Shown here one piece after another: positions 1,059-7,794 of a stretch of DNA of 7,794 bases. The notes below the pieces were generated by a model that searched no databases, was not told the DNA's origin, and saw only the letters and a program-made list of their open reading frames with translations. Within the stretch, counting starts at the first letter, position 1. The number at the start of each line of letters is the position of its first letter. The position numbers and the translations under genes are program-made. The stretch is from NCBI GenBank assembly GCA_025453925.1, contig JALOPK010000151.1, positions 1 to 7,794 on the forward strand, written 5' to 3'. Source of the stretch: Candidatus Eiseniibacteriota bacterium. Its GTDB lineage: Bacteria > JAFGKV01.

Positions 1059-1496
1059 GTGAAAGCCTACTGCAACCCCAAGCCGACAGTCGACGTGATC
1101 ATCGAGGTTCCTGGTGGCATCGTGCTCATCCGCCGGAGGAATCCCCCGTTCGGCTGGGCGCTTCCTGGAGGGTTCGTGGACTGCGGCGAGACACTGGAGC
1201 ACGCGGCCATTCGAGAGGCCAGGGAGGAGACGGGTCTGTCCATCGACCTCGTCAGGCAACTCTATACCTATTCCGACCCGGGCCGTGATCCGCGTCACCA
1301 CACCATCAGCACGGTGTTTGTGGCCCATGCGTCGGGCCGCCCGGTCGCTGCGTCCGACGCGGTTGACGCAGCGGCATTCCAGCCGCCGTGGCCATCACCC
1401 ATGGCCTTCGATCACGCCGAGATCCTCGCCGACTACCTCATTGCGCGGAGGGACCCCCTCTACAGTCCTCTACGGCGGATCGTTCACGGTCCTTGA
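1059..1496 (+). CDS. NUDIX hydrolase (ADP-ribose pyrophosphatase/MutT-like)
   Basis: A 145-residue single-domain NUDIX protein. The NUDIX box GX5EX7REUXEEXGU is complete: G38, E44, R52-E53, E56-E57, G59-L60. The glutamates bind the Mg2+ that drives hydrolysis of a nucleoside diphosphate linked to another group. The [16 protein letters not shown] stretch and the later [12 protein letters not shown] segment resemble the branch usually annotated as ADP-ribose pyrophosphatase or generic NUDIX; the exact substrate cannot be read from the sequence. The GTG start at 1059 is chosen because GGAGGAG lies at 1050-1056 and the N-terminus (KPTVDVIIE) is the usual one for this branch. No signal peptide, so cytoplasmic. 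Its last 19 codons plus stop overlap the opposite-strand mazG; the overlap covers a variable tail after [12 protein letters not shown]. Confidence 0.92.
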
Positions 1497-2223
1497 CCTC
1501 CTTCCACGCCTCCTCCATGTCGCTCAAACGCGCCACGCTGAGTCGTGTTCCCCGTTCCGCGAGGAGCCCTTCCATCTTGGCGAATCTGCCCGAGAAGCGG
1601 GTGACCGCTCCGTGGAGCGCCTCTTCCGCCACCAGGTTGAGGTGGCGACCATATGCAACAAGCGCGAACAGCAGGTCGCCAAGTTCTGCAGCCGTTTCAT
1701 CCAGATCATCGCGCTCGACAGCCTCTTCCAACTCCCGCAGTTCTTCGAGAACCTTGGCCCACCTCGCTGCTGCAGTCGGCCAGTCAAACCCGACCTCGGC
1801 GGCGCGCTGCTGACACCTCCAGGCCCGGAGAAGAGCGGGCAGCGACCGGGGAACTCCTTCCATGATGGAGGTCCGCCCCTGCTCACGAAGTTTGCGCGTC
1901 TCCCATGTCGCGGCCGGTTCCGGTTCTTGGCCGTCAAGAAGATGGGCGTGCCGGGCACTGATCTTGGCGACGATCTGGGCAATGACGTCGTCCAGGCAAA
2001 ACGCCCCGCGCTCCCTGGCCAGTTCCGCCTGGAAAACAATGTGAAGGAGAATATCCCCCAATTCCTCGCGGATGCTCTGGTCGTCTTCATGAGTGATGGC
2101 GTCAACCAACTCGTACGCCTCTTCCAGAAGGAATGGTGCGAGAGACCTGCTTGTCTGAGCCCGATCCCAGGGGCATCCCTCGGGGCCTCGGAGTCTGCGG
2201 ATGAGGGTCATGAGTCTTTCCAT
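1438..2223 (-). CDS. mazG: Nucleoside triphosphate pyrophosphohydrolase MazG
   Basis: A 261-residue two-domain MazG, close to the length of the E. coli enzyme. It converts NTPs to NMP and pyrophosphate, removing non-canonical nucleotides and, in E. coli, affecting (p)ppGpp levels. The N-terminal repeat starts with [15 protein letters not shown] and has the EExxE...ExxD metal site at E34, E35, E38, E54, D57. The linker carries the family signatures [10 protein letters not shown] and [20 protein letters not shown] opens the second repeat, whose site is around E160-E164, E180 and D183 (AELGD). The ATG at 2223 gives the expected N-terminus; a second ATG at 2211 has a nearby GGAAAG, so a start four codons later is possible. 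Convergent with the NUDIX gene and divergent from the STAS operon. The last 19 residues, which are variable in the family, lie in the overlap. Confidence 0.95.
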
Positions 2224-2261
2224 GCCGTCAACATTGCGGCATCGGGCTCCGCCCGCAACCC

Positions 2262-2290
2262 TTGACGACGGGGACGGGTAGACCTACAAT
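2262..2290 (+). promoter_or_regulatory. Sigma70-type promoter of the STAS-phosphatase-kinase-flippase cluster
   Basis: TTGACG at 2262-2267 and TACAAT at 2285-2290 are separated by exactly 17 bases, each one base off the housekeeping consensus. Transcription would begin around 2296-2299, leaving about 45 bases of leader before the ATG at 2343. It sits in the gap between mazG and the STAS gene and is the only strong promoter seen before the four plus-strand genes. Assigned by inspection only. Confidence 0.65.
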
Positions 2291-2342: not shown

Positions 2343-2687
2343 ATGTTGAAGATCTCCCGTCGTGACGTGGATCATGTCGTGGTCTTGACTCTGAAGGGGA
2401 AGCTCATCGGCGGTCCCGAGGCGATCGAGTTCAGGGAGACCGTGAAGGGCTTGATTGCGGAGGGAAAGACGAAGGTTCTTGCCGATTTGGGTGGAGTGAC
2501 GTGGATCGACTCCACTGGGCTCGGAACCCTGATCTCCGCGTACACGTCGTTGAAAACAAGCACTGGCGAACTCAAACTGTGCCATTTGACCAAGAAGATT
2601 CACAGCCTTCTGGTCATCACGCAACTCATCACGGTGCTCGAAGACTATGATGACGAGCAACAGGCGATAGCGAGTTTCGGGAACTGA
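2343..2687 (+). CDS. STAS-domain anti-sigma factor antagonist (RsbV/SpoIIAA type)
   Basis: A 114-residue protein that is a single STAS domain. In partner-switching systems the unphosphorylated form binds the HATPase kinase and frees the kinase's target; phosphorylation ends the interaction. The phosphorylation motif is present as WIDSTGLGTL with the acceptor Ser57. The N-terminal strands (HVVVLTLKGKLIGGPEA) and the region between strand and helix (KTKVLADLGGV) fit the fold; the C-terminus ends with an acidic EDYDDEQQA. No signal or membrane segment, so cytoplasmic. The phosphatase begins about 50 bases downstream and an RsbW-like kinase follows it, which supplies both expected partners. The kinase and the phosphatase are the likely regulators of its activity; transcription should come from the promoter at 2262-2290. 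Confidence 0.93.
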   Translation: MLKISRRDVDHVVVLTLKGKLIGGPEAIEFRETVKGLIAEGKTKVLADLGGVTWIDSTGLGTLISAYTSLKTSTGELKLCHLTKKIHSLLVITQLITVLEDYDDEQQAIASFGN

Positions 2688-2704
2688 TCGCCAGAGGCGG
2701 AGCC

Positions 2705-2722
2705 ACAGCGAATACAGCGAAT
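2705..2722 (+). repeat. Perfect tandem duplication of ACAGCGAAT
   Basis: Two adjoining copies of the 9-mer ACAGCGAAT, at 2705-2713 and 2714-2722, fill the spacer between the STAS gene and the ribosome site of the phosphatase. A small CGCC-AGA-GGCG inverted repeat lies just before, at 2689-2699, without a T run. Role unknown; it may simply be a slippage product. Confidence 0.7.
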
Positions 2723-2724
2723 CA

Positions 2725-2732
2725 GAAGGTGA
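2725..2732 (+). promoter_or_regulatory. Strong ribosome binding site deciding the phosphatase start
   Basis: GAAGGTGA matches seven of the eight bases of the full Shine-Dalgarno sequence GGAGGTGA and sits 5 bases before the GTG at 2738. The alternative GTG at 2729 lies inside this element, so 2738 is the better start. Confidence 0.6.
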
Positions 2733-2737
2733 AGTCT

Positions 2738-4882
2738 GTGGTCGGGAGGACCGAACTCAGAACCGCCGCATTGTCTGTGGCAGGTCTTGCGGTAGCGATT
2801 GGCTGTGCCTTCGTCTGGTTCCCGCGGGCATCGACCTTGTGGGGGATCGGGCCGGATGGCATCCGCTCCCGGGCGGTCTCGGTGATGAAGACGCTCGACG
2901 CGCGGACATCCCCTCTGCCCAAACCCGCCCTGCGCGGCAACCCCACGATTCCTCTCTGGGTGTCGTCACGGACGTCTGGCGGGAGGTCAACGACTCTCGC
3001 GCTCAGTCCCGCGGGTGACATGGTCTACGTGCGCCAACAGCCGTCGCCGATCTCCTTCCCCGTGCCGAGGGAAGGTCTGCAGGGATGGCTTCAATCTCTG
3101 GGCGCGACGCTGCCGATCGAGGTAGGGCGCGTGAATCCGGGACTCGGTGATTCGGGAGTCATCGGGGTCCTCGAACGCCACGACGGCACCGCGCTCGGGG
3201 TGGTGCTGCCCGAGATCGCCGCCGCGGGTCCGCTGGAGATCGGAGGCGGGAGGCCGCTTCCGGACCTTTCTCCCCCGTTCCGCATACCGGGGATCCCCGC
3301 GCTCCTGTTGGCCGTCTGCGTGGTGGGTCTCTCGGCGCCGGCGCTGTGGAGGACGGTCGCCGAAGGGCGAGCACGCCCCGATCGGGCTGCCGTCGTGGGG
3401 GCGCTCACGCTGGGTGCCGCTCTGGTTGGCTACCTCGCCTTGATGCTCGCTCAGGGTGTTTCCGGTGAGCGATCGGTCACGGCGGTCGGAATGGCGGCTG
3501 CCATGGCATTGACGGTGGTGGCCGGGCTCATGCTGTCCGCCAGTGCGCCATCATCGAAAGGGGGGGCATCCCGCGGCGAGGTGCGCGCAGGATGGCTGCT
3601 GAGCGGCGCTGCAGTTGGGCTGGCCTCCCTGATCCTCGTCCTCCCGGCGGCCACCCTGCAGGCAGTCTCCTGCTCGGCCGCCCCCGGATACCTTGCCGTT
3701 TCCTCGGCGCTGCTGGCGGTAGCCTTTGGCTTATTCATCGAAATCGGTGTGCGGCCCACCATCGAGATCGCCCTCACACCCGCTCGTCTGCCGGTCAGCC
3801 TCGCGCTCGTCGGAGCGGCAGGGGGCCTGTCTCTCGCGCCTGCGATGGCGGGCCCGTGGTGGTGGTCCCTCCTTTGGTCGATCGCCGCCACCGTCGGTTC
3901 GGGTATCGTGGCGAGGCACGTGGGGCGCTGGGCGGCCGCAATGATCCTCGCCATGTACTACGCGGCGGCAGTCACCCTCCCCGCCTTCGCCACGTCGGTC
4001 GCGGGCGTCATGGCTGGGCTGGCAGGCCTCGCAGTGGTCTACATTGTGGTCCCGGCGCTGCTGGTGCAGCGCGTCGAATCGTGGTGGCCAACATCCGCGC
4101 CACAGGTCCCCTCCTATGTGCGGGAGATACGCGACGCCGCACAACGAGGATGTGTCCAGGAGTTGGCGGGAGTTCTCCAGTCATCGCTGTGCGTCACGAC
4201 CCCGGCCCTCGAAAGAGGCATCGAGGTAGGGTGCGTCGTCAAACGAGCGCAGCCTCCGGCCTCGGACGTGTGTCGCATCATCGGCATCACCCGTGACCGA
4301 TTGGGGGTTGTTCTCGGTGATGTCCCGGGCGAGGGCGTCCAGGGGTCGATCCAGGCATCGGTCGTGAGCACTGCGGTGGTCGGTGCTCTAGGCGACGTCA
4401 AGAACCTGGCGGCTCTTCCGGGAGAGGTGGAGCGGGTGCTCGGTTCAATGTGGAGTGGTGCGGGAGAAACGGTCGCCGTGAGTGTCGGCATTCTTGATCG
4501 CCGATCCAAGAGCTTCGCCTTCCTCAACGCCGGGCACCAACCCGCCCTCCTCTTCCGTTCCCTCGTCGGAAGATTCGAGCGCGTTTTCCCCGCCGGCGAC
4601 CCGCTGCGAACGGTTCCGCAGGAGGCCAAACGAATCCACGAGGTGTCCACCCTGCAATTGGTGACCAAGGACCTTCTCATCTTTCACTCCGATGGGCTCC
4701 TGCGCGTGCCGACACAGGGGGGGCAGCACTTCGGGCCGGATGAACTGGAGAGGCTGGTCCTGGGGAATCCGGCTGCATCCTGCGACGAACTGGCACAGTC
4801 TCTCGATTCTCAAATCGATGCGTTGCTCGGTGGGTCGAGCCCCGATGACGATGTCGTGGTGTTGTTCTTGAGAGGGAAATGA
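2738..4882 (+). CDS. Ten-helix membrane protein with C-terminal PP2C/SpoIIE-type phosphatase domain
   Basis: A 714-residue protein (717 if the GTG at 2729 is used). By eye: helix 1 at about residues 11-28; about 155 polar residues expected outside the membrane; nine more hydrophobic helices from about 185 to 445; a linker; and a SpoIIE/RsbU-family phosphatase domain from about 495 to the end. Ten helices place both ends in the cytoplasm, which fits. The phosphatase motifs are GDVPGEGVQGS (Asp528), FLNAGHQPALLFR, FHSDGLLR (Asp652) and SPDDDVVVLFL (Asp703-705). The first motif, normally GGDxxD, reads ASDVCR: one Asp (510) is kept, the second is Arg. It probably dephosphorylates the neighbouring STAS protein in response to a membrane or periplasmic signal. 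The layout recalls Bacillus SpoIIE, but the extracytoplasmic part is not one I recognise. Its stop overlaps the next start by 4 bases. Confidence 0.9.
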   Translation: MVGRTELRTAALSVAGLAVAIGCAFVWFPRASTLWGIGPDGIRSRAVSVMKTLDARTSPLPKPALRGNPTIPLWVSSRTSGGRSTTLALSPAGDMVYVRQQPSPISFPVPREGLQGWLQSLGATLPIEVGRVNPGLGDSGVIGVLERHDGTALGVVLPEIAAAGPLEIGGGRPLPDLSPPFRIPGIPALLLAVCVVGLSAPALWRTVAEGRARPDRAAVVGALTLGAALVGYLALMLAQGVSGERSVTAVGMAAAMALTVVAGLMLSASAPSSKGGASRGEVRAGWLLSGAAVGLASLILVLPAATLQAVSCSAAPGYLAVSSALLAVAFGLFIEIGVRPTIEIALTPARLPVSLALVGAAGGLSLAPAMAGPWWWSLLWSIAATVGSGIVARHVGRWAAAMILAMYYAAAVTLPAFATSVAGVMAGLAGLAVVYIVVPALLVQRVESWWPTSAPQVPSYVREIRDAAQRGCVQELAGVLQSSLCVTTPALERGIEVGCVVKRAQPPASDVCRIIGITRDRLGVVLGDVPGEGVQGSIQASVVSTAVVGALGDVKNLAALPGEVERVLGSMWSGAGETVAVSVGILDRRSKSFAFLNAGHQPALLFRSLVGRFERVFPAGDPLRTVPQEAKRIHEVSTLQLVTKDLLIFHSDGLLRVPTQGGQHFGPDELERLVLGNPAASCDELAQSLDSQIDALLGGSSPDDDVVVLFLRGK

Positions 4883-5310
4883 ACGCCGAATCCTTCATAA
4901 GGACGATTAGTCTGGAACTCCCCAGTGATGTCAGATTCCTGGAGCTCGCCCACTGTCTCGGCAAGGAGATCCCTCAAGCGCTGGGTGTACCTGAGTCGGA
5001 AGCGGAGGCAATTGGGAATGCGGTGCTGGAGGCGGTGGGAAACGCCATGCGTCACGGCAATCGCCTGGATCCATCTTTGCCCGTCGCGCTCCGCTTCGAG
5101 GTGGACAGCGGGACCTTCCAAGTGAGCATTGGGGACAGAGGGGTCGGGTTCGACCCCGACGCTCTGGCCGATCCGACAACCGGTGAGAACCTCATGAAGT
5201 CGTGCGGGAGGGGCCTCTTCCTGATGCGCGCGTTCGTGGATACGGTCCAGGTCTGCCCCCGGGAGGGCGGCGGCACGACCGTCACACTCCGCAAGTCGTT
5301 CGGGCCGTAG
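4879..5310 (+). CDS. RsbW/SpoIIAB-type serine kinase (HATPase) anti-sigma factor
   Basis: A 143-residue GHKL ATPase-fold protein of the anti-sigma kinase type. The N box is EAVGNAMRHGN (residues 51-61, catalytic-type Glu51 and Mg-binding Asn55), the G1 box is GDRGVGFDP (Asp86), and the G2 region is GRGLFLMRAFVD (110-121), followed by the closing strand GTTVTLRK. Such kinases phosphorylate the STAS partner on its serine and, when not held by it, bind and silence a target, often a sigma factor. No sigma factor is present in this window, so the target is unknown and might not be a sigma factor. The ATG at 4879 shares ATGA with the phosphatase stop, a sign of translational coupling that would keep kinase and phosphatase in step. 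Confidence 0.93.
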   Translation: MNAESFIRTISLELPSDVRFLELAHCLGKEIPQALGVPESEAEAIGNAVLEAVGNAMRHGNRLDPSLPVALRFEVDSGTFQVSIGDRGVGFDPDALADPTTGENLMKSCGRGLFLMRAFVDTVQVCPREGGGTTVTLRKSFGP

Positions 5311-5316
5311 CCGCCG

Positions 5317-6855
5317 GTGGGCGACCTCGCCACAGGGCCGAGACCTCACCGTACCGCAGAATCCCTGGCAGACAAGGGCGCCTACAACGTCCTGAACACT
5401 CTCCTGGTTGTCGCCAGGTCTCTCATACTCTCGATCCTGGTAGCTCGGGCGCTGGGCCCTTCCCTCCAGGGCCTCTACTCGATCCTCCTCTATGTGACGC
5501 AGGTCGGCGTCCAGGTCGTCAGCCTGGGCTTCCCGAGCACCTTGGTTCGTTTCGTCGCCCGCAGGAATTCCGAGGGCGACAAAGCCGGCGCACGCGCGGT
5601 AGTGGCCAGTATCGTTCGGCGTGAGATCGTTCTGGGGCTTGTGGCCACGGTAACCTGCGCACTGCTGGCGGGAGCCCTGGCGGTCGGAGTCGGCCAGGAT
5701 GCACCGCGGGCCCTGTTCCTGCTGGCCGCGTTGGCGATTCTTCCGGACAGCCTCACGTTGGTTTACGAGGCGGCGTTTGAGGGCCTCTTGGCCTACTCGC
5801 TGCTTCTTCGGATCAATCTCGCCTTAGTACCTCTCTCGTTGGCCGCTGCGGGAGCGATACTCCTTTCGGGAGGTGGAATTGGCGAATTGCTCATCCTGAA
5901 AGTGGCGCTCGCCGTCGTACGGGTTGCCTTGTATTGGCGAGTGATTGGTCGACGGTTGCCGGCCGGTGGAACGCTCATGGCAGACACCAGGTCTCAGATG
6001 TCACGGTACACGCGAAGCCTGACTGCCATCTTCCTGTTCGACGCCGTCGTCTGGCAGCGCTCGGAGATGCTGTTCCTGGGGCTCTACTGCTCCCGGGCGG
6101 CGATCGCGTTCTATGATATTGCCTACCAGGTAGTGGGGACCACCATGCGGACACTCCCTGAGAAGCTCACGGACATCCTGTTCCCGGTGCTTTCAGGTCT
6201 TGAGCAGCGTGGAGAACGGGAGCGGACTGCCGCATTGTACCAGCGGAGCGTGCGGCTTCTGTTTGCCGTAACGCTTGGAATCTCGGTGACGCTTGGCGTC
6301 TGCGCAGGCCGATTGATCTCCCTGGCATACGGCCCTGAGTACGCCCCGGCGGCCGATGTGATACGCGTGCTTTGCGCTGCTGCGCCGGTGGTGATCGTCG
6401 CTCGGGCAACCGCCTATGTGCTCTATGCGGCCGGGTGGCAGAACTTCAATGTCAGGCTCGCCGGTGCGGCTGCCGCGCTCAACATCCTGCTCGCGATGGT
6501 CCTCATTCCCCGCTCCGGGGTCGTCGGTGCCGCGGTAGCGAACAGCCTCACGCAGGTGCTGTCGGTGTGCGTACTGGTCTCGTATGTCGTGAGGAGGAGC
6601 CACGCCAGACTTCCGTGGGACGCCATGCTGAGGACGCTGCTGGCCGCGGCGGCGCAAATGACCGTGATGATCTGGCTGGACCGTGTGCTGGGCGGATGGG
6701 GCGCACTGGCAGGGAGTGCTGTGTGTGGAGTCGCGACGTACGGAGCAGCGCTCATGGCGATGAGGGTTCTGACCGCAGACGAGCGGGCAATGCTCGCGCG
6801 GTGGATTCGACGAATCCTCGGGATGAGAAGGACGAGTGCCGGGGGACGGAATTGA
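5317..6855 (+). CDS. Polysaccharide/lipid-linked oligosaccharide flippase (MOP superfamily, Wzx-like)
   Basis: A 512-residue integral membrane protein with about 12-14 hydrophobic helices spread over its length, the usual size of Wzx/PST flippases. These move undecaprenyl-linked sugar units across the inner membrane for O-antigen, capsule or exopolysaccharide. Family-like features are the N-terminal GAYNVLNTLLVVARSLILSI segment with ARALGP (44-48 area), GLYSILLYV, the LRINLALVPLSLAAAGAIL helix, LPEKLTDILFPVLS near 280-293, and LIPRSGVVGAAVANSLTQV near 397-414. The GTG at 5317 follows the kinase TAG after six bases and has no visible ribosome site, so re-initiation by ribosomes finishing the kinase gene is likely. 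No glycosyltransferase is adjacent, so the exported glycan is unknown. A MATE or MurJ role is less likely from the sequence pattern. The last 19 bases overlap the tRNA gene on the other strand. Confidence 0.88.
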   Translation: MGDLATGPRPHRTAESLADKGAYNVLNTLLVVARSLILSILVARALGPSLQGLYSILLYVTQVGVQVVSLGFPSTLVRFVARRNSEGDKAGARAVVASIVRREIVLGLVATVTCALLAGALAVGVGQDAPRALFLLAALAILPDSLTLVYEAAFEGLLAYSLLLRINLALVPLSLAAAGAILLSGGGIGELLILKVALAVVRVALYWRVIGRRLPAGGTLMADTRSQMSRYTRSLTAIFLFDAVVWQRSEMLFLGLYCSRAAIAFYDIAYQVVGTTMRTLPEKLTDILFPVLSGLEQRGERERTAALYQRSVRLLFAVTLGISVTLGVCAGRLISLAYGPEYAPAADVIRVLCAAAPVVIVARATAYVLYAAGWQNFNVRLAGAAAALNILLAMVLIPRSGVVGAAVANSLTQVLSVCVLVSYVVRRSHARLPWDAMLRTLLAAAAQMTVMIWLDRVLGGWGALAGSAVCGVATYGAALMAMRVLTADERAMLARWIRRILGMRRTSAGGRN

Positions 6856-6909
6856 ACCGCCGACACACGGATTTTCAGTCCGCTGCTCTACCTGCTGAGC
6901 TACCCCGGC
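6837..6909 (-). tRNA. tRNA-Phe (anticodon GAA)
   Basis: The 73-base gene folds into a full cloverleaf: acceptor GCCGGGG with CCCCGGC, D stem GCTC/GAGC, anticodon stem GCGGA/TCCGT around loop CTGAAAA (anticodon GAA), variable loop GTGTC, T stem GGCGG/CCGTC (one G-T pair) with loop TTCAATT, and discriminator A. The genome does not encode the CCA end. It lies 50 bases downstream of mltG on the same strand and overlaps the 3' end of the flippase gene on the other strand. Confidence 0.97.
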
Positions 6910-6935: not shown

Positions 6936-6963
6936 AAAATACCTCTCCTGTGCCTTCCGTCAA
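6936..6963 (-). promoter_or_regulatory. Likely promoter of tRNA-Phe
   Basis: On the minus strand TTGACG (6958-6963) and TATTTT (6936-6941) are 16 bases apart, giving a start about 20 bases before the tRNA. The -35 box contains the stop codon of mltG, so the tRNA could be made independently of mltG despite the short gap. Assigned by inspection only. Confidence 0.45.
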
Positions 6964-7794
6964 GGCCCCGATGATCTGCTTCCTCGATACTCCCTGACCG
7001 CGGCCCGATGCTCCGCGAAAGTCTCGCTGAACTGGTGGGATCCATCGCCGCGCGCCACGAAATAGAACGCGCGGCAGGATCGATCAGGGTGTAGCACGGC
7101 CTCGATGCTGCCCAAACCGGGCGAGCAGATCGGCCCGGGAGGCAGCCCGCCGTTAAGATAGGTATTGTACGGAGAGGGACGCCGGAGATCACTGAGACTC
7201 AAGCGCCGACCGGGAATCCCAAGACCATACGCGACCGTCGGATCCGCATCGAGCTTCATCCCAATGGCGAGTCGATTCAGATACGTCGCCGCGACGGTGG
7301 GCCGTTCGGCCGGAAGAGCGGTCTCTTTCTCGATGATGGACGCCAGGGTGAGGATCTCGTGGAGAGACAACTGAGTCAACCCCTCATCCCAATCAGTGCC
7401 GTCGAGCACGGCACGCAGTCGGGCCACCATGATGGAGGCGATCCGATCAGGCCGGGTGCCGCTGCTGAACAGGTATGTGTCGGGGAACAGGTAGCCCTCG
7501 AGAGACGAAGAGGCGATGCCCAAGGACGCAGCGAACGAGTCGTTGGCGCAGAACCGGAGGAAATCAGTCGAATCAATGCCCACAGTGGCCTTGAGGATTG
7601 AGGCGACATCCAACACCGTGCTGCCCTCTGGCACCGTCACTGGCCTGCTCATCACCTGACCGCTGACCAGATAATGGAGAATCTCGCGGGGGGTCATGGC
7701 GGCACTGAGCAAGTATGACCCGGCTTGGATGCGGCCGTCCCGGGAGGCAAATCGCCCCCAAAGGGACAGGAGCCTGGGATGCCGGACCAGACCG
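6960..7794 (-). CDS. mltG: Endolytic murein transglycosylase MltG (YceG family), N-terminus outside window
   Basis: 277 residues are visible, read from the window edge to a TGA at 6960-6962. The frame is open to the edge, so the cytoplasmic start and the membrane anchor are missing; a TTG at 7712 is not the start, because the family segment GRIQAGSYLLSAAMTPREIL spans it. MltG cuts nascent peptidoglycan strands at the outer face of the inner membrane and is thought to end their synthesis. Family motifs in order are VTVPEGSTV, SLEGYLFPDTY, LASIIEKETALPAER (the EKET that carries the catalytic Glu, at 7320-7331), YLNRLAIGMKLDADPTVAYGLG, NGGLPPGPICSPGL and FYFVARGDGSHQFSETF. Its true neighbour upstream is off the window; tRNA-Phe follows downstream. 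Confidence 0.96.
   Translation of the reverse strand, partial: GLVRHPRLLSLWGRFASRDGRIQAGSYLLSAAMTPREILHYLVSGQVMSRPVTVPEGSTVLDVASILKATVGIDSTDFLRFCANDSFAASLGIASSSLEGYLFPDTYLFSSGTRPDRIASIMVARLRAVLDGTDWDEGLTQLSLHEILTLASIIEKETALPAERPTVAATYLNRLAIGMKLDADPTVAYGLGIPGRRLSLSDLRRPSPYNTYLNGGLPPGPICSPGLGSIEAVLHPDRSCRAFYFVARGDGSHQFSETFAEHRAAVREYRGSRSSGP

Follow-up and report, generated by a model that had tools for sequence, protein, structure and literature searches.

The window, by which we mean the whole stretch of DNA analysed here (C155, a complete contig of 7.8 kb from a 3.9-Mb genome that is 82% complete), encodes a STAS protein, a membrane SpoIIE/PP2C-family protein, an RsbW-type kinase and a Wzx-like flippase in one apparent operon. 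The explanation that we favour, and to which we give an even chance, is that this operon would specify a sigma-free variant of the partner switch, expressed from one sigma-70 promoter, and with a target other than a co-encoded sigma factor and, as judged by descent, other than the flippase. Within the phylum the comparison covered three genomes: that of the window (G000) and two relatives (G001 and G002).

Operon layout and the STAS-kinase pair

The window contains the following features:
3–742: fragment of a secreted-type protein, its C-terminal domain weakly FlgD-Ig-like (under the Pfam cut-off)
1438–2223, minus strand: MazG pyrophosphohydrolase, divergent from the operon, with the same arrangement in both relatives
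2254–2290, plus strand: sigma-70-like promoter before the STAS gene (match 2262–2290), CGCAACCCTTGACG-N17-TACAAT (TTGACG-N17-TACAAT)
2343–2687, plus strand: STAS-domain protein of the anti-sigma-factor-antagonist type, 114 aa (PF01740, 1.3e-12)
2729–4882, plus strand: membrane SpoIIE/PP2C-family protein, 717 aa (PF07228, 5.8e-21)
4879–5310, plus strand: RsbW/SpoIIAB-like GHKL serine kinase, 143 aa (PF13581, HATPase_c_2, 1.5e-25)
5317–6855, plus strand: MOP-superfamily, Wzx-like flippase (Polysacc_synt_3), 512 aa (PF13440, 2.9e-22)
6836–6909, minus strand: tRNA-Phe(GAA), convergent, 3′ of the flippase gene
6960–7793, minus strand: MltG endolytic transglycosylase, 3′ part of the gene, convergent

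All four operon genes lie on the plus strand in the order STAS, phosphatase, kinase, flippase, with intergenic gaps of 41, −4 and +6 nt, the second being a 4-nt overlap of the phosphatase and kinase genes. The first-pass annotation had reported a STAS protein with its phospho-serine motif, an RsbW-type kinase, a membrane phosphatase and a flippase encoded together, and these domains were confirmed; its values of −4 and +6 for the later gaps were exact, and its estimate of about 50 for the first was close to the actual 41. Overall, its observation was partly confirmed and its interpretation partly supported. At the far end of the operon, the flippase gene runs 20 nt into the convergent tRNA-Phe gene, both in the window (6836–6855) and in G001 (L047, 5849–5868), and the C-terminus SAGGRN common to these two flippases comes from this overlap; the corresponding genes of G002 (L048) lie apart.

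A consensus scan of the plus strand between positions 2000 and 7000 returned one promoter-like site, directly 5′ of the STAS gene, and no match 5′ of the flippase gene. Both relatives carry the −35 block CGCAACCCTTGAC unchanged; the −10 element TACAAT recurs unaltered in G001 and in a weaker form in G002. This pattern fits a single transcript from a housekeeping-type promoter, which would drive the whole four-gene operon, and the separate flippase promoter that had been raised as an objection to a common transcript found no match: a single promoter-like site heads the operon.

The STAS protein carries the acceptor motif IDSTG (Ser57), which is invariant in the orthologues, and scores over the TIGR00377 cut-off. 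The kinase has intact motifs (N-box E51/N55, D86-G88-G90 and G110-R111-G112) that are invariant in nine aligned kinases. Among solved structures, the kinase is closest to RsbW/SpoIIAB and the STAS protein to SpoIIAA. Judging from the intact motifs, the kinase would bind the STAS protein and phosphorylate it at Ser57, as RsbW does with RsbV, and the free kinase or the free STAS protein would contact a target other than a co-encoded sigma factor.

There is no sigma gene within the 7.8-kb contig, as the earlier description had it, but this is not unusual: among 100 loci of this STAS family in other lineages, a sigma match lies within about 7 kb in only four. Absence of a sigma factor is therefore the rule for this STAS family and not an oddity. 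A canonical anti-sigma switch with an unlinked sigma factor, in which the kinase would sequester the sigma factor and the STAS protein would free it as in RsbV/RsbW, agrees with the structural relationships described above and with the supply of about 20 sigma genes per genome (20–22 Sigma70_r2 matches in each of the three phylum genomes). We nevertheless consider this explanation unlikely, with a real minority chance of being right, given that no SigB/F/G-type sigma factor exceeded the family cut-off (TIGR02980) in the three genomes, one of them 82% complete, and that the best matches in this search look RpoD-type and second sigma-70-type. The kinase, too, falls far under the anti-SigB/SigF equivalog cut-offs (SpoIIAB, TIGR01925, 51.5 versus 135 bits; RsbW, NF003144, 44.1 versus 145 bits; TIGR01924, 39.8 versus 155 bits), and where RsbW has its helix-1 Arg, all three orthologues have His and the nearest kinase relatives D, N or H. 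Read against SpoIIAB and its Arg20, this His is a weak lead only.

Signature and conservation of the membrane PP2C protein

The second gene of the operon encodes a membrane protein consisting of a first TM segment, an extracytoplasmic stretch of about 150 aa, about eight more TM segments, a linker and a PP2C domain at residues 496–717; its AlphaFold2 model, made with three sequences, is of low confidence (mean pLDDT 44.9). The metal ligands of SpoIIE are Asp610, Asp628, Asp746 and Asp795 (PMC3517971; PMC5468089). The PP2C domain of the window keeps Asp at all four of these positions (D513, D531, D655 and the D706–D708 run), and its signatures are changed from GGDxxD to ASDVCR, from TDGxxE to SDGLLR and from DDxT to DDVV. 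All three orthologues lack the second Asp in GGDxxD, the acidic residue in TDGxxE and the Thr in DDxT, and both relatives additionally have a ligand substitution, Glu at the 628 position in G001 and Asn at the 746 position in G002. At the Asp628, Asp746 and Asp795 positions, every one of 79 other SpoIIE domains has Asp; this reference set is made up of 71 domains from other loci and 8 paralogues of the three phylum genomes. The earlier description of the module as complete is thus doubtful as stated, with the PP2C signature eroded in three of three orthologues and a ligand Asp lost in both relatives.

The PP2C domain is at the same time the best-conserved part of the protein, at 65.6% versus about 36% for the remainder (window versus G001), with dN values of 0.28 and 0.67, respectively; since pS is about 0.7 and synonymous sites are near saturation, dN alone was compared between the two parts. 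Because the domain is the best conserved and yet has lost signature residues, the alignments suggest for it a role in addition to, or in place of, ordinary catalysis. With all four ligand Asp residues retained, the copy in the window may still be fully active. In the mechanism that we favour, the membrane protein would sense an envelope or extracytoplasmic cue via its fast-evolving N-terminal region, and would either have weak phosphatase activity on STAS-P or, with the erosion of its active site, act mainly in membrane docking or sensing. In the docking or sensing case, another SpoIIE phosphatase of the genome would reset the STAS protein.

The flippase and its neighbourhood within the phylum

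The flippase scores 79.7 bits against PF13440 (gathering score 23) and is well under the named Wzx equivalog cut-offs; a sequence search returned no solved structural relative. It resembles the Polysacc_synt_3/Wzx-type MOP flippases in exceeding the PF13440 cut-off, but differs in its surroundings, with no full glycan locus nearby in the contig and no further capsule genes in the operon. The possibility that it is the MurJ of this lineage was rejected, as it scores 40.8 versus 235.55 bits against TIGR01695 and a separate MurJ is present in G001 and G002.

The order STAS, PP2C protein, kinase, flippase is present in all three phylum genomes. Identities of the two relatives to the window are 85% and 71% for the STAS protein, 45% and 30% for the PP2C protein, 71% and 50–51% for the kinase and 66% and 59% for the flippase, and the kinase and flippase genes are spaced by +6, +3 and about −8 nt (a short overlap) across the three genomes. 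Conservation of the four-gene order in relatives, which had been proposed as a check, was therefore found in both, but it is non-specific, for synteny extends past the four genes, to MazG on one side and to MltG, RuvX, an S41 protease, a glycosyltransferase and GAPDH on the other. In the window MltG is the next protein gene past the flippase; RuvX, then the S41 protease, follow behind MltG in G001 and G002. At an unrelated control locus, recN and the genes for a membrane protein, an NYN-type protein and a second HATPase protein are also together in G002. Because the surrounding block and this control locus are equally conserved, the adjacency of the flippase has little weight alone. The second HATPase_c_2 kinase of the control locus (L042, 3481–3984, on contig C110 of G000) adjoins the NYN-type gene and recN and is kept in both relatives; an ECF sigma/anti-sigma pair lies near it in G000 and G001 and is missing there in G002.

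The first-pass annotation had suggested that the switch may act on envelope or capsule production. In its direct form, unphosphorylated STAS protein or free kinase would gate the flippase or a glycan pathway on a signal sensed by the membrane phosphatase. The close spacing of the kinase and flippase genes in three genomes, the retention of the flippase at 59–66% identity, the lack of a promoter match of its own and the precedent of sigma-free switches for polysaccharide pathways are all consistent with such tuning of glycan export. We give it a small chance, however, because the synteny covers the whole neighbourhood and not the kinase-flippase pair alone, the operon has no other capsule genes, and related modules elsewhere have no adjoining flippase. 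On this last point, a flippase profile matched at none of 100 related STAS loci elsewhere, a result from a profile that is only moderately sensitive (of 7 loci in these genomes with other MOP-type flippases it recovered 3, and it missed both MurJ proteins).

The precedents are instructive in what they share with the window and in what they do not. Beside the premise that modules of this type usually control a sigma factor stand the sigma-free partner switches for polysaccharide or biofilm that are already known, namely SypA/E, HmpUVW, SiaABC and BgrU/V/W (PMC8256260, PMC10120452, PMC7647112). With the Bacillus RsbV-RsbW-RsbU and SpoIIAA-SpoIIAB-SpoIIE systems the operon has in common an acceptor-Ser STAS protein, a GHKL kinase with intact motifs, a SpoIIE-family PP2C domain on a membrane protein and the single operon; it departs from them in having no sigma gene in the operon, no SigB/F-type sigma over the cut-off, a partly lost PP2C signature and a flippase next to it. 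SypA-SypE, of the Vibrio fischeri symbiosis polysaccharide locus, likewise combines a STAS protein with a serine kinase/phosphatase in a polysaccharide context and has no known sigma factor as its output (PMC10120452, PMC8256260), but SypE unites kinase, receiver and phosphatase domains in a single protein within a biosynthesis locus, whereas here there are three genes and a lone flippase. SiaABCD of Pseudomonas aeruginosa and BgrU/V/W/R of Sinorhizobium also co-encode a PP2C phosphatase, a kinase and a switch protein for sigma-free biofilm or glucan control (PMC7647112); the outputs described for them are diguanylate cyclases, a type of enzyme that the window operon does not encode. HmpU/V/W of Nostoc punctiforme comprises a phosphatase, a STAS protein and a kinase at a hormogonium motility/polysaccharide locus, with its target unknown (PMC8256260), and differs in gene context, a flippase or RuvX/MltG link not being reported for it. 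A limited literature search found no paper describing a flippase encoded together with a partner switch.

Since related switches in distant bacteria adjoin cell-wall and RNA housekeeping genes, the flippase is probably a local passenger and not the original target of the switch. In the explanation that we favour, it would be co-transcribed with the module as a phylum-particular insertion beside an older STAS-kinase/ruvX-mltG neighbourhood, and may share an envelope role. Several points count against this explanation: the MltG-linked kinases do not resolve as a single clade, other lineages have a different gene order and a different membrane part of the PP2C protein from those in the window's phylum, the window's PP2C domain has all four ligand Asp residues and may be fully active, and the tight coupling of the kinase and flippase genes would also fit a functional pair.

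RuvX and MltG beside related kinases in other lineages

At six of the 100 STAS loci the module adjoins RuvX and/or MltG (L144, L148, L150, L152, L169 and L174, the contig of the last ending after RuvX), and a kinase search added three further RuvX/MltG-linked loci (L272, L275 and L277). The RuvX-MltG-linked kinases fall in six families: f26, f67, f100 (three genomes), f136, f159 and f174 (two genomes). The neighbourhood, which recurs in unrelated families, can be written lspA/rluD-[STAS]-kinase-[PP2C]-ruvX-mltG, with genes that overlap or nearly touch (L148, L174, L272, L275 and L277) and with rluD 5′ of the module in the loci examined closely. The STAS gene is missing at this place from L272, L275 and L277 and the PP2C gene from L144, L148, L275 and L277; as each is missing from some loci, it is the kinase that stays constant. 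The f100 loci (L150, L152 and L169) have an ABC-type transporter, ATPase plus permease, between the PP2C gene and ruvX.

MltG is single-copy in nearly every genome that has it, and the proximity of kinase and MltG is therefore not expected by chance. On the kinase tree the MltG-linked rows cluster (3 changes versus 8.3 in shuffles), a pattern that does not establish a single clade. At L144 (8534–9361), directly following rluD and the STAS gene and preceding MltG, one 275-aa frame encodes an RsbW-like kinase joined to RuvX (YqgF), a fusion known from a single MAG sequence. A limited literature search returned no paper on a partner switch or anti-sigma antagonist with MltG/YqgF.

These loci raise the possibility that RuvX or MltG is the real partner in the window as well, an old link surviving as proximity across the flippase, through which the switch would control rRNA maturation or DNA repair (RuvX) or the release of peptidoglycan glycan chains (MltG). 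The placement of the kinase next to or near both genes in six other families and the kinase-RuvX fusion point in this direction. Here, however, MltG and RuvX are on the opposite strand, past the flippase and tRNA genes, translational coupling in a housekeeping operon is no proof of contact, and the fusion is one sequence; we give this possibility a slim chance for the window. A broader proposal, to which we would assign quite a small probability, is that there is a family of RsbW-like kinases whose conserved partner is RuvX and/or MltG and not a sigma factor, and that in this phylum the module has gained a flippase and has a PP2C domain on the way to a pseudophosphatase, the outcome being a switch that acts by direct contact on envelope or RNA-processing enzymes.

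Active-site erosion in a conserved phosphatase domain suggests a pseudo-enzyme inside a phospho-switch, which we offer as a lead and not as a result. No sigma factor is known for many STAS-kinase modules, and for these the RuvX-MltG neighbourhood, together with the kinase-RuvX fusion, provides a concrete and testable candidate target, again as a lead.
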